From Dehalococcoidia bacterium (GTDB taxonomy: Bacteria; Chloroflexota; Dehalococcoidia; Lucifugimonadales; UBA3495): DNA of 64,000 nt. The stretch lies in the NCBI GenBank assembly GCA_022827095.1, contig JAJDTP010000009.1, forward strand, positions 62,001 to 126,000. Direction: 5' to 3'. Of this stretch, positions 6,133 to 59,778 are shown in pieces (within the stretch, counting starts at the first letter, position 1; the number at the start of each line of letters is the position of its first letter). The position numbers were made by a program, and so were the translations under genes. Below the pieces are notes generated by a model, which made no database searches, was not told the origin of the DNA, and worked only from the letters and a program-made list of their open reading frames with translations.

Positions 6133-6229
6133 AAAGCTATCCTCCAGGTGCCGGCTATTGGGAATTTGAGGCCAAACGATGGTACAACATTCGCTACGGG
6201 CCGACAATCGGCGGAGCATTTACGTAACT

Positions 6230-6352
6230 GTTCAGACTTGCGGGGAAAGTGTCATTGCGAGCGCAGCGCGGCAATCTCGTTAGCGTAGGAGATCCCTTCG
6301 GGACAGACGGCGCCGCTATGGCGTCGAGATTGCCACGGCGCGAGCACGGAAG
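6230..6352. repeat. family B dispersed repeat (CATTGCGAG type)
   Basis: An intergenic copy with arms CATTGCGAGCGCAGCGCGGC and, inverted further on, GAGATTGCCACGGCGCGAGC, around a variable centre. The left edge GTTCAGACTTGCGGGG is shared with the copy at about 31319. It occupies the gap upstream of the thiolase gene (6133-6380), in which I see no gene. Confidence 0.8.
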
Positions 6353-6374
6353 TCGCGAACGCCTCACCTTGGCT

Positions 6375-10445: not shown

Positions 10446-10531
10446 CCCTTGCTCCTGTGTGGCAACTCAGTTTGCACCGCGCCGGCAATTGTCCGCGCAG
10501 CCCCGCAACGCCGTCAACCGCACCGCGGCTT

Positions 10532-10692
10532 ATGCGTACCCACTTTCGCAAATCGTCAGAAGCAGGATTTGCCGGATTTTATGATTGGGCAGGATTGGGA
10601 TATCTCCATCACATAACGGTTCCAATCCTGAAAATCCGATAATCTTGAAAATCCTGCTTCTGACGTTTCCCCGCCGCAAACTGGGTACGCAT
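10532..10692. repeat. family A element, full length, with outer inverted arms
   Basis: Core arms GTCAGAAGCAGGATTTGCCG (10555 on) and AATCCTGCTTCTGAC (ending 10665) surround a GGATT/AATCC-rich centre. Outside the core, ATGCGTACCCACTTT on the left and AAACTGGGTACGCAT on the right form a second inverted repeat. This is the best-preserved copy, about 160 bp, and it defines the family. It lies between an acidic hypothetical gene and gcvT. Confidence 0.85.
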
Positions 10693-10754
10693 GAGGACCG
10701 CGGATCGCCCCCGCCGTTGGGAGGGGAATGTGGACGCGCCCGCCCTTTTCGTCA

Positions 10755-12794: not shown

Positions 12795-12932
12795 CGTCAG
12801 AAGCAGGATTTTCGGGATTACGGGATTGTCAGGATTGAGACCATTTGGAGGCAGAGCGCTCCTAATCCTGATAATCCACAAATCCGGCAAATCCAGCTTC
12901 TGACGTTCCCCCGCCGCAAACCGGGTATGCGT
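12795..12932. repeat. family A element
   Basis: Starts CGTCAGAAGCAGGATTTTCG and ends AATCCAGCTTCTGAC. The right outer arm CGCAAACCGGGTATGCG is present and the left outer arm is not evident, so this is a one-sided copy. Confidence 0.8.
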
Positions 12933-12987
12933 TCAGGGCGAGCGATCGCCACTTGCCAGCTTAAGAGTCGGCGACTATCATAGCCGC

Positions 12988-14277: not shown

Positions 14278-14420
14278 AGCATGTTTACAAACTGAAAATT
14301 ACCCCGTCGTTCCTGCGAAAGCAGGAACCCAGGAAATCACTGCCGGCAGAAATTTGGCCTTATTTGTACTCGCTGGATTCCCGCTTTCGCGGGAATGACG
14401 AAGTTTGTAAACACGCCCTA
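14275..14420. repeat. family C MITE-like element with 17-bp TIRs and CTAG borders
   Basis: Left end GAGCATGTTTACAAACT (14277-14293) and right end AGTTTGTAAACACGCCC (14402-14418) are inverted with 2 mismatches. The inner arms are the family C core (CGTTCCTGCGAAAGCAGGAA, and GCTTTCGCGGGAATGACG). TA flanks both ends inside CTAG. The left TAG is the stop of the SCO1664-type gene and the right CTA is the stop, on the minus strand, of the HAD gene. Confidence 0.85.
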
Positions 14421-15080
14421 GTCGCTCCCCGCCAGCAGCCCGTAGTCGAAGTGCTCCAGGTTCTCGATGATCACGTCCGCCGCCGAGAGGTCCAGGTGGC
14501 GCGTGGAATCGGTCAGCGTGCAGACCGTGTAGGCCCCCGACCCGCTGGCCGCCGCCAGGCCGATGGGCGAGTCCTCGATGGCCACGCACTCCGTGGGTTC
14601 CAGCCCCAGCAGCCGGGCGGCCTTGATGTAGATGTCGGGAGCCGGCTTGCCGTTTTCGATGTCGTCGCCGCCCAGCTTCACCGGGAATGCATCGGTCAGC
14701 CCGATCACCGACAGTTTCAGGTTCACCCACTCCCGCAGCGATGACGACGCCACCGCGATGGGCAGTCCGCGCCGTTGAGCTTCGGCGATCAACTCACGCA
14801 CGCCCGGCCGCGCCACCAGATCGGAGCGCAGCACCTCCTTTACCACCTCGTTGTAGCCGGCCAGCAACTCCGCCGGCGTCTGTGGTATCCCGCGCAGTTC
14901 CTTGACCCGCACCCAGGTCTCCTCCACCGTGGTGCCCAGCAGGTGGCGGTTGTTCTCCTCCTCCGTGATCGGCGCGGCTCCGCACCGTTCCACCATCACG
15001 TTCACCGCCTTGTGGAACAGCGGCTCGCTGTCCACCAGCACGCCGTCCATGTCGAACAATATCCCCTTGTAGCCAGGCAT
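14418..15080 (-). CDS. HAD-superfamily phosphatase, beta-phosphoglucomutase-like
   Basis: A 220-residue subfamily I HAD protein. Motif I is ILFDMDGVLVDSEPLFHK (nucleophile Asp in DMDGVLVDSE, about residues 8-16), motif II VASSS near 112, motif III with Lys in NGKPAPDIY near 145-153, and motif IV IEDSPIG near 168. An all-helical cap lies between motif I and II, as in sugar-phosphate mutases and phosphatases. The substrate cannot be read. Start at ATG 15080 with AAGGAGG upstream. Its TAG stop is created at the border of the adjoining family C element. Confidence 0.85.
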   Translation of the reverse strand: MPGYKGILFDMDGVLVDSEPLFHKAVNVMVERCGAAPITEEENNRHLLGTTVEETWVRVKELRGIPQTPAELLAGYNEVVKEVLRSDLVARPGVRELIAEAQRRGLPIAVASSSLREWVNLKLSVIGLTDAFPVKLGGDDIENGKPAPDIYIKAARLLGLEPTECVAIEDSPIGLAAASGSGAYTVCTLTDSTRHLDLSAADVIIENLEHFDYGLLAGSD

Positions 15081-15293
15081 CTCCGGTTGGTCCTCCTTGC
15101 TGTGTCTTGTCTCTCGCGGGGCGTCGCAACCCGATACTTGGCATGAGGCCCGAAACGCCGTAGACCGCACTGGCGTCGGCGCGCTGCGGACGTTAGAATC
15201 CGTTATTTTGGGCATCAGAGTCCCGCTCCTTCCATGCCGGCATTATATCAAGGAGCCCCAACACGCGGCCTGTCTGATCTTCGTAATCCCCAA

Positions 15294-15450
15294 GGCTATC
15301 GCATATGAAATCACAACGGCGTCACTCCGGCGAAAGCCGGAGTCCAGAGCCTGTGAATGGCTTGACATTCCCATGGAAGCAGCCGACTTCGGTCACTGGA
15401 TACCGGCTTTCGCCGGTATGACGATACTAAACCGTTCATATGCGATAGCC
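15294..15450. repeat. family C MITE-like element with 16-bp perfect TIRs
   Basis: GGCTATCGCATATGAA (15294-15309) is exactly inverted at 15435-15450. The inner arms are the family C core (GTCACTCCGGCGAAAGCCGG; GCTTTCGCCGGTATGACG). The gap 15081-15675 holds this element, then a promoter and a leader; no gene. Confidence 0.85.
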
Positions 15451-17568: not shown

Positions 17569-17849
17569 GCCGGGAGAACGTCACAGAGCATCGAGCTGGC
17601 TTCGGCTCCGACCGTAAGCCAGTTTGACGGCAACCGTCGGAACCATTCAGCCTGATGCGAGTGTAGGTCTGCCGGCACTGCTCGACCGGCGCCGGCGCCC
17701 GTTTCCCCAGAGAGCCTGAGGCTCAATGTACCGGGTCCTTGCTCCAGCGCCGGACGGCTATTCCGGCGCCGCGCTGGCGGTGAGCTCCGTGCGCTGCCGG
17801 AGCGGATTTGCTCGGGCAATGCCCGGGCGGCCGTCAGTTAAACATTCGC
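17569..17849. other. intergenic 3' flank shared with copy 2
   Basis: The first ~60 bases (CTGGCTTCGGCTCCGACCGT and AGCCAGTTTGACGGC) match the bases after copy 2, so the tandem duplication included the 3' flank. Near 17745-17775 the complementary GCGCCGGA and TCCGGCGC could form a hairpin, without a T run. No gene seen. Confidence 0.5.
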
Positions 17850-17983
17850 TCACGCGTACCCAGTTGTCATCGCGAGGAGCGCATCGACGTGGCGATACCG
17901 TTGCTGAAAGAGACCCTGTTGCCATCACGAGATTGCCACGCTGCGCTCGCAGTGACCGGTGCGGGAAACTGGTTACGCATTAG
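17850..17983. repeat. family B element with family-A-like outer arms
   Basis: Outer arms CACGCGTACCCAGTT and AACTGGTTACGCATTAG are inverted. Inside are GTCATCGCGAGGAGCGCATC and GATTGCCACGCTGCGCTCGC. The outer arms match those of the family A copy at 10532. Confidence 0.75.
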
Positions 17984-26547: not shown

Positions 26548-26553
26548 GGGAAC

Positions 26554-26663
26554 GTCAGAAGCAGGATTTTCAAGATTTGGGGATTATCAGGATTGGAACC
26601 GTTCAGTGATGGAGTTCTCCCAATCCTGTCAAATCATAAAATCCCGTAAATCCTGATTCTGAC
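26554..26663. repeat. family A element
   Basis: GTCAGAAGCAGGATTTTCAA on the left and AAATCCTGATTCTGAC on the right, with a central GGATTATCAGGATTG block. It lies just after the LLM gene stop and before the promoter of the selenoprotein unit. Confidence 0.8.
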
Positions 26664-26698
26664 GATTTACGAAAGTACCCGTGCCGGCGATCGCCGCG

Positions 26699-31264: not shown

Positions 31265-31318
31265 CTCCCCTCCGGGACTGCTACACGCTCCGGCAATGCA
31301 CCGCCGGGCTGGTAATGG

Positions 31319-31449
31319 TTCAGACTTGCGGGGAATGTGTCATTGCGAGCGGAGCGCGGCAATCTCGTTGACGTAGAGTAGTCCTCTGGGCCAGAGGTTG
31401 CGGCGGCGGCATCGAGATTGCCACGGCGCAAGCGCCTCGCAATGACAAC
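31319..31449. repeat. family B element
   Basis: GTCATTGCGAGCGGAGCGCG on the left and GAGATTGCCACGGCGCAAGC then CTCGCAATGACAACC on the right, with left edge GTTCAGACTTGCGGGG as in the copy at 6230. It fills the gap before the alpha-hydroxy-acid oxidase gene; no gene in the gap. Confidence 0.8.
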
Positions 31450-31549
31450 CCACTGGATTCTGAACACTTACCCGGGCTGGCCCAGCCCAACGGGTTCGGG
31501 TCAGATTGTTGACGCCGGCCCGCCACAGCCGATCCACTATGGAGGACGC

Positions 31550-32734: not shown

Positions 32735-32885
32735 GCCTGATGCGTGCCGCCCGGGACGGCAATCGCGAAACGTGTCACGGGACCGAAGCAGACCACCCCG
32801 GATTTGGAAGGCGATGTTTATCTCAACACGACTCTCTTTTTGGGGTAATATGACGCTCGCAACGACACTATTGGAAAGCCAACTC

Positions 32886-32990
32886 ATCGCGAGGTAATCT
32901 CGTCAGGGTAGCGGACGCCGCCGCGGGAACGAGATCGCCACGTCGCTGCGCTCCTCGCGATGACAAACCGGGTACGCGTGAGCGATATGC
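32886..32990. repeat. family B element with one family-A-like outer arm
   Basis: CATCGCGAGGTAATCTCGTC and GAGATCGCCACGTCGCTGCG, CTCCTCGCGATGACAAACC are inverted; the right edge continues as AACCGGGTACGCGTGAG. Located between the oxidase and the first MaoC-like gene. Confidence 0.75.
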
Positions 32991-36080: not shown

Positions 36081-36216
36081 CGTCAGAATCAGGATTTACG
36101 GGATTTTGTGATTGGCAGGATTGGGTGATCGCCATCGCAGAACGGTTCCCATGCTGATAATCCCTGAATCTTGAAAATTCTGATTCTGACGCTGCCCCCC
36201 GCAACCTGGGCATGCG
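36081..36216. repeat. family A element
   Basis: CGTCAGAATCAGGATTTACG on the left and AAATTCTGATTCTGAC on the right, then the right outer arm CGCAACCTGGGCATGCG. The left outer arm is absent. It fills the gap between amidohydrolase and MFS genes. Confidence 0.8.
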
Positions 36217-36228
36217 CGGGGTAAAACA

Positions 36229-42437: not shown

Positions 42438-42440
42438 GTC

Positions 42441-42749
42441 TCACGCATACCCAGTTTGCCGCCAGGGAACGTCAGAGTCAGGATTTACGGGATTTTATGA
42501 TTGGGCAGGATTGGGAAAGCTCCGTCGCAGAACGGTTCCAATCCTGTAGGACTTGCGCAGTTTAGTGCCTCTACTTCCGTCATTCCGGCGAAAGCAGAAA
42601 TCCAATGGCCGAAATCGTTAAGCATCAGAACGACGCTTTCACACTACGACTCCTGGACTCCGGCTTTCGCCGGAGTGACGGGTGTGGGATTTCAAGTGCG
42701 TAACTCCAATACTGAAAATCCCAAAATCCGGTAAATCCTGATTCTGACA
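42441..42749. repeat. family A element interrupted by a nested family C element
   Basis: The left half begins with the outer arm ACGCATACCCAGTTTGCC (42443 on) and GTCAGAGTCAGGATTTACGG (42471 on). The right half is AAATCCTGATTCTGAC ending 42747. Between them, 42547-42705, lies a family C element with imperfect ends TAGGACTTGCGCAGTTTAG and CAAGTGCGTAACT and the core ATTCCGGCGAAAGC. Near-identical CCAATCCTG (42538-42546) and CCAATACTG (42706-42714) flank it. No gene in the gap 42438-42749. Confidence 0.8.
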
Positions 42750-59589: not shown

Positions 59590-59683
59590 GCCTGGTCAAA
59601 CTCCTGTCTGCTGATGCCCAGGTCTCTTCGGATTCCGTGAATAGTTCCCGTGGCCAGATCCCGATGGCCCGCATGCAAACCCA
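59586..59683 (-). pseudogene. hicA: hicA remnant: C-terminal part only
   Basis: The minus strand reads LGLHAGHRDLATGTIHGIRR then DLGISRQEFDQA, the end of a HicA/YcfA mRNA interferase (HAGxDLxTGTxxxIxRDLGISxxEF). The N-terminal half with the fold core is missing: a family A half element begins directly upstream, where the missing part should be. The product would be non-functional. Its TGA overlaps the ATG of the oxidoreductase gene. Confidence 0.75.
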
Positions 59684-59768
59684 GTTTGCGGTTGGGAACC
59701 GTTCCGCGACGGAGGCTCCTCAATCCTGCTAAATCATAAAATCCCGTAAATCCTGATTCTGACGATTC
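59681..59768. repeat. truncated family A element inserted in the hicBA locus
   Basis: In plus orientation GGTTCCGCGACGGAGGCTCC (A-family central part) is followed by AAATCCTGATTCTGACG ending near 59765. The outer-arm motif AACCCAGTTTGCGG is at 59680-59693. Only one core arm is present. Confidence 0.75.
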
Positions 59769-59778
59769 ACGTGCCGGC

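Follow-up and report, generated by a model that had tools for sequence, protein, structure and literature searches.

Unrelated palindromic cores between IS4-type ends, and the same core kinds between other transposon-type ends, in a genus of Dehalococcoidia

Elements in the 64-kb window

The window, by which we mean the whole 64-kb stretch of DNA analysed, holds a number of short elements consisting of a palindromic core between inverted arms. The element in focus is 167 bp long, lies at 10529 to 10695 on the + strand, and is sited upstream of the gene for the glycine cleavage T-protein. Its left end (CTTATGCGTACCCACTTT, 10529-10546, + strand) has 3 mismatches to the arm sequence CTCACGCGTACCCAGTTT, referred to here as type 1, and its right end (10678-10695, - strand) has 1. 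Between them is the A core (10554-10665, + strand), made of two inverted halves headed by CGTCAGAAGCAGGATT. The element has a folding z of -8.7. Its target duplication is imperfect, with ACCGCGG at both flanks, and the orthologous site in a sister species (G011) is empty with a single copy of the target sequence. The same kind of arm is found on both sides of a 135-bp element at 17849-17983 (+ strand; arms 17849-17866 and 17966-17983), which has an exact 9-bp duplication, AAACATTCG, and contains a different core, B. The original prediction held that the same outer arms frame copies of two unrelated repeat families, and these two elements bear it out, as A and B have no evident common sequence apart from the arms. 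The unit common to them is 18 bp, CTC followed by ACGCGTACCC(A/G)(G/C)TTT, also written CTCACGCGTACCC(A/G)(G/C)TTT, and A and B have different linkers just within the arms.

Other type-1 elements in the window are less complete. A single arm had been proposed for three further A copies, and it is clear for the one at 12795-12935 (+ strand, with the right end at 12918-12935 alone recognisable) and for the one starting at 42440 (+ strand, left end 42440-42457), and degraded with 5 mismatches for the one at 36081-36220 (+ strand, end at 36203-36220). A truncated B-core element at 32866-32982 (- strand) has one type-1 end, which had been placed at 32990, about 25 bases off its true position of 32965-32982. 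Half of an A core at 59670-59771 (+ strand) retains one rather degraded type-1 end (59670-59687), and an A core at 26548-26676 (+ strand) has decayed ends with inner linkers still discernible.

The window also contains other kinds of ends. The A element at 42440-42749, with halves at 42470-42485 and 42734-42749, is split by a nested element at 42547-42709 (+ strand), in which a core D, a CGTC-tagged palindrome dimer, sits between type-3 ends (TAGGACTTRCGCA). A 160-bp element at 31312-31471 (+ strand) has a B core in type-4, or IS66-type, ends (31312-31328 and 31455-31471), with the 8-bp CCGGGCTG abutting both sides, so that the B core kind occurs in both type-1 and type-4 ends inside one window. 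Another B core, at 6224-6360 (+ strand), has an exact left type-4 end (6224-6240) and has lost the right one. Two more D dimers (14305-14400 within 14280-14430, and 15320-15423 within 15290-15450) each lie within their own short inverted repeat (TTTACAAACT and GGCTATCGCATATGAA, respectively), apparently representing further end kinds. An Rfam search of the window gave no match.

Distribution of the type-1 arm

The genome to which the window belongs (G000, 3.79 Mb in 35 contigs) was sampled contiguously over 797 kb (contigs C1, C14, C32 and part of C21) with targeted searches in addition, and was compared with loci from 13 relatives, making 14 species of the genus in all. Allowing up to 2 mismatches, the 18-mer arm has 144 matches in this genome versus 0 for the reversed control, and a 15-mer form has 127 versus 2. 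At up to 4 mismatches the chance level is about 0.5 matches per shuffled window. The 18-mer is found in 13 of the 14 genomes of the genus, with copy numbers running from 0 to 219 across the genus and from 1 to 219 where it is present. Outside the genus, isolated matches were all that turned up in the 99 genomes searched, and the metagenome-assembled genomes with the exact arm, among the matches listed, bear the titles Dehalococcoidia, SAR202 or Chloroflexota, apart from a single one labelled proteobacterium. An end sequence related to type 1 was also seen at one locus of another genus (L132 in G043).

Target duplications flank whole units with type-1 ends

Direct repeats abut the type-1 arms at lengths of 9 or 10 bp only, with identities of 0.43 and 0.54 versus 0.27 in cross-paired controls. 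A 9-10 bp duplication with at most 1 mismatch is found in 25 of 70 type-1 elements, versus a fraction of 0.0002 in the cross-paired controls. A similar search around armless cores detected no target duplication. The A and B units, at lengths of 135-167 bp, carry no transposase of their own, and have the 18-bp terminal inverted repeats and the 9-10 bp whole-unit duplications of miniature inverted-repeat transposable elements (MITEs). They are non-autonomous MITEs, and the insertion sequence from which they derive is described below.

The autonomous IS4-type element

The original prediction expected a complete, transposase-bearing element with these ends, and one was found in sister species. It is an insertion sequence of about 1.18 kb with type-1 ends and a probable IS4-family transposase, with three complete copies plus one diverged copy in G011, and it occurs also in G013. 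Its target duplications are exact and 9-10 bp long, for example CATATTGACG and ATCCTCACG; the IS4 family has a duplication range of about 9-12 bp. The transposase scores E = 7e-43 and 147 bits against the NCBIfam IS4-family model NF033591, whose curated cut-off is 152, and is above the cut-off for PF01609. A PDB sequence search with it gave nothing meaningful. It resembles IS4-family insertion sequences in the transposase profile, the DDE-type domain, the Y-R-E-K motif region (YRKRMQPEQYFKDGK) and the duplication length; it differs in that the transposase gene runs with its last codons, CAA ACC GGG TAC GCG TGA, into the right inverted repeat, and in being restricted to one genus (60 genomes searched). 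In G005, type-1 ends surround a 360 aa transposase, with extra DNA in the left part of the copy, and G002 has a 270-bp derivative produced by internal deletion. At one locus of G013 (L221, contig C102), the insertion sequence and its 9-bp duplication are followed immediately by a B-core element that has type-1 ends too.

When the left 139 bp of the insertion sequence is compared with the window's own genome, there are 55 matches, all within bases 1-24 and nearly all within 1-19. No copy of the IS4-type transposase was detected in this genome or in G004, both of which are rich in type-1 ends; it may have been lost, or may be absent from the draft assembly. Because what the insertion sequence has in common with the genome is the terminal 18-19 bp, and no transposase copy was detected there, the window elements are non-autonomous and would have been transposed in trans.

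Type-1 ends hold several cores

We catalogued 180 distinct type-1-framed elements across the 14 species, with at least 6 core types, A, B, C, D and two others. One end family does then hold several core families, as had been predicted, and A and B have common ends across the genome and the genus as well as in the window. Since core classes were assigned by short motifs, the census is approximate at B 126, A 16, C 6, E 3, D 1 and unclassified 10; 7 elements are the insertion sequence or its deletion derivatives, and the rest are composites. Several of the unclassified elements, all from one relative, have a further core in common (GATCAAACCGTCATGG..), and the D-like core in type-1 ends was seen in a single element (L157). 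Each combination has conserved linkers joining end to core, those of A for example being GCGGCGGGGAAA and CG(T/C)AAAT, which argues that each combination comes from an armed ancestor. Two side observations belong with this catalogue. G005 has its own core of about 490-510 bp with type-1 ends (L185, L186, L195-L197) and few A or B elements. At L035:1500-1780 (G000:C20), two B-core elements adjoin, and the second has ends of two different kinds, type 1 and type 4.

The same cores occur in other ends

Further end kinds came to light from words enriched beside the cores and from orthologous sites in relatives. Type-2 ends, CAGGGCCTTTTCAAAGTC, were found on 38 elements with a duplication of exactly 9 bp (0.72 versus 0.29), and their cores are D, B, A, C and another hairpin. 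In the window's own genome, a 1197-bp element with type-2 ends encodes an ISAs1-family transposase, and at L409 two reading frames of this transposase are both above the NF033564 cut-off, the gene apparently being split by a frameshift. Type-4 ends, GTAACTGTTCAGACTTG, were found on 30 elements with a duplication of exactly 8 bp (0.71 versus 0.28) and with cores B and D. Beside a type-4 end lies a fragment of an IS66-family transposase, above the cut-off for PF03050 and below it for NF033517; an intact IS66 element with type-4 ends was not found. Type-3 ends, TAGGACTTACGCAG, were found on 12 elements, every one with core D, with a duplication of 5 bp that is partly a common target, TGACA, since the controls are high too. 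Type-3/D elements have repeatedly inserted where a B core ends in TGACA, with duplication of TGACA (L059, L127, L289, L329, L330, L343), so that the B tag looks like a target they favour.

The modularity is therefore two-way, with one end set holding several cores and the same core kinds lying in other ends. The proposal of one transposition system holds as far as the ends in focus are of IS4 type, and is incomplete because the same cores occur in ISAs1-type and IS66-type ends.

Capture, amplification and exchange

The question of how freely cores change ends was approached by core relationships. In a tree of B cores, copies group by their ends with 8 end changes among the armed copies, a number to be taken as indicative because the tree has few informative columns and weak support. 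Nearest-neighbour core identity is mostly greater within end types than between them. Core sublineages being mostly end-specific, captures were probably few and followed by amplification, and the mostly lower identity across ends indicates that the core kind is common to them and that recent swapping is rare. The cores had been called interchangeable, which is right in that one kind of end holds several of them, and goes too far where it implies frequent shuffling.

A few elements have two different ends, namely one on contig C20 near 28050 (type 1 on the left, type 4 on the right), one on contig C14 near 225814 (type 4 and type 1), and one at L348 (type 4 and type 2). These chimeras suggest exchange by recombination inside homologous cores. 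Capture by neighbouring ends would be the alternative, and it would fit a 631-bp element at C32:57559-58189, in which parts of C-type and A-type units lie between one end pair, with a weak duplication. As a separate observation, the chimeras at L022:490-690 (the C14 element) and L348:1200-1360 have flanking direct repeats of about 18 and 10-13 bp, exceeding the normal length for either of their end types.

The reading we favour, at a probability of about 0.88, is that the arms are ends of the IS4-family insertion sequence, that the A, B and other units are MITEs moved in trans, and that the cores were captured a few times and then amplified. The type-1 arms would be the 18-bp terminal inverted repeats of the insertion sequence, and the MITEs would retain these and little or nothing more of it. 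Transposase supplied in trans would cut at the ends and carry everything between them, leaving the 9-10 bp target duplication. The cores would be palindromic, REP-like repeats existing also without type-1 ends, trapped between an end pair a limited number of times, after which each armed combination was amplified. The same core kinds would have been taken up independently by ISAs1-type and IS66-type ends, with exchange proceeding through recombination inside homologous cores or through two neighbouring ends mobilising the DNA between them. More speculatively, CGTC-type cores might be parasites of unrelated cut-and-paste transposons (IS4, ISAs1, IS66), whose ends they would take up again and again in spreading, and might switch carrier through recombination within the homologous cores themselves.

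In many core copies no ends can be recognised, so either the ends are not the sole route of spread or they have decayed. If decay were the whole answer, armless cores would be former armed MITEs with no mobility of the core itself, similar to the end-less Coxiella QMITE that resembles REPs. Decay of this kind is described in a review of MITEs (PMC10969869), and several seemingly armless A copies of the window's own genome, such as the one at 26548-26676, do retain inner linkers or arm remnants. However, A and B half-cores are found in other genera and families essentially without such ends, and in G006 and G010 A cores are numerous and ends scarce, making this account rather improbable. Less probable still is that the arms form a target palindrome, with CGTC-type REP dimers inserting at its centre by a mechanism of their own, as reported for Halothiobacillus CGTC-1 dimers. 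CGTC and GTAG dimers inside palindromes are on record (PMC3733652), D dimers are central in several different inverted repeats, including the two in the window, and armless A cores bounded sharply by (C/T)GTC are frequent in both G006 and G010. Against it, no core-free arm palindrome was seen among paired ends (the scans having a lower size limit of 30-60 bp, below which very short ones may have escaped), the target duplications flank the arms with none detected around armless cores, and the linker conservation within each armed family argues that the armed unit itself was copied. That arms of just 15-18 bp resemble each other by chance or convergence is refuted by the controls, namely the match count versus the reversed arm, the inverted pairing and the length-specific duplications.

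Relation to known systems

The elements are like the bacterial MITEs Nezha, RUP and QMITE (PMC10969869) in being short and non-coding, in having the ends of an autonomous insertion sequence and target duplications, and in folding as hairpins. They differ in that one end set holds several unrelated cores that are themselves repeat families recurring in other ends. BOX elements of streptococci are modular too, and in S. suis two kinds of end module surround the same boxB core (PMC3049150). Unlike BOX elements, the present ones have palindromic dimers from several unrelated families as their cores and, going by end sequence, duplication length and transposase, involve at least 3 transposase families.

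CGTC-tagged REPs are defined by a CGTC tag, an 8-9 bp stem, a 4-5 base loop, a CCA-like tail and head-to-head dimers (PMC3733652). As read in the sequence, core D belongs with them, having the CGTC tag, an 8-bp stem (ATTCCCGC/GCGGGAAT), a 4-base loop, a CCA tail and head-to-head dimers. Core B is similar in its TGTC tag; for A and B the tag resembles (C/T)GTC, and the stem and loop lengths are outside the published range. What differs from the published repeats is that D, B and A lie inside IS4-, ISAs1- and IS66-type ends with target duplications. REP dimers inside palindromes were already noted for Halothiobacillus and Anabaena (PMC3733652), which together with the S. suis BOX ends makes the present arrangement a wider and mechanistically anchored version of what is on record. 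A literature search with little coverage of subscription journals gave no description of such an arrangement in Chloroflexota. MITEs and modular BOX elements are known, and within the literature searched it is the breadth of the end-by-core matrix that is new.

The 2013 survey found no dedicated transposase for CGTC repeats and raised the question of mobilisation by others (PMC3733652). In the present genomes, CGTC-type repeats lie between the ends of two known transposon families at least, and probably of three, each with its own duplication length, and a single purified transposase would be enough to test the question of their mobility. The matrix of ends and cores shows that short transposon families can retain their ends yet swap their content, with ends and cargo behaving as mix-and-match parts in one Chloroflexota genus.
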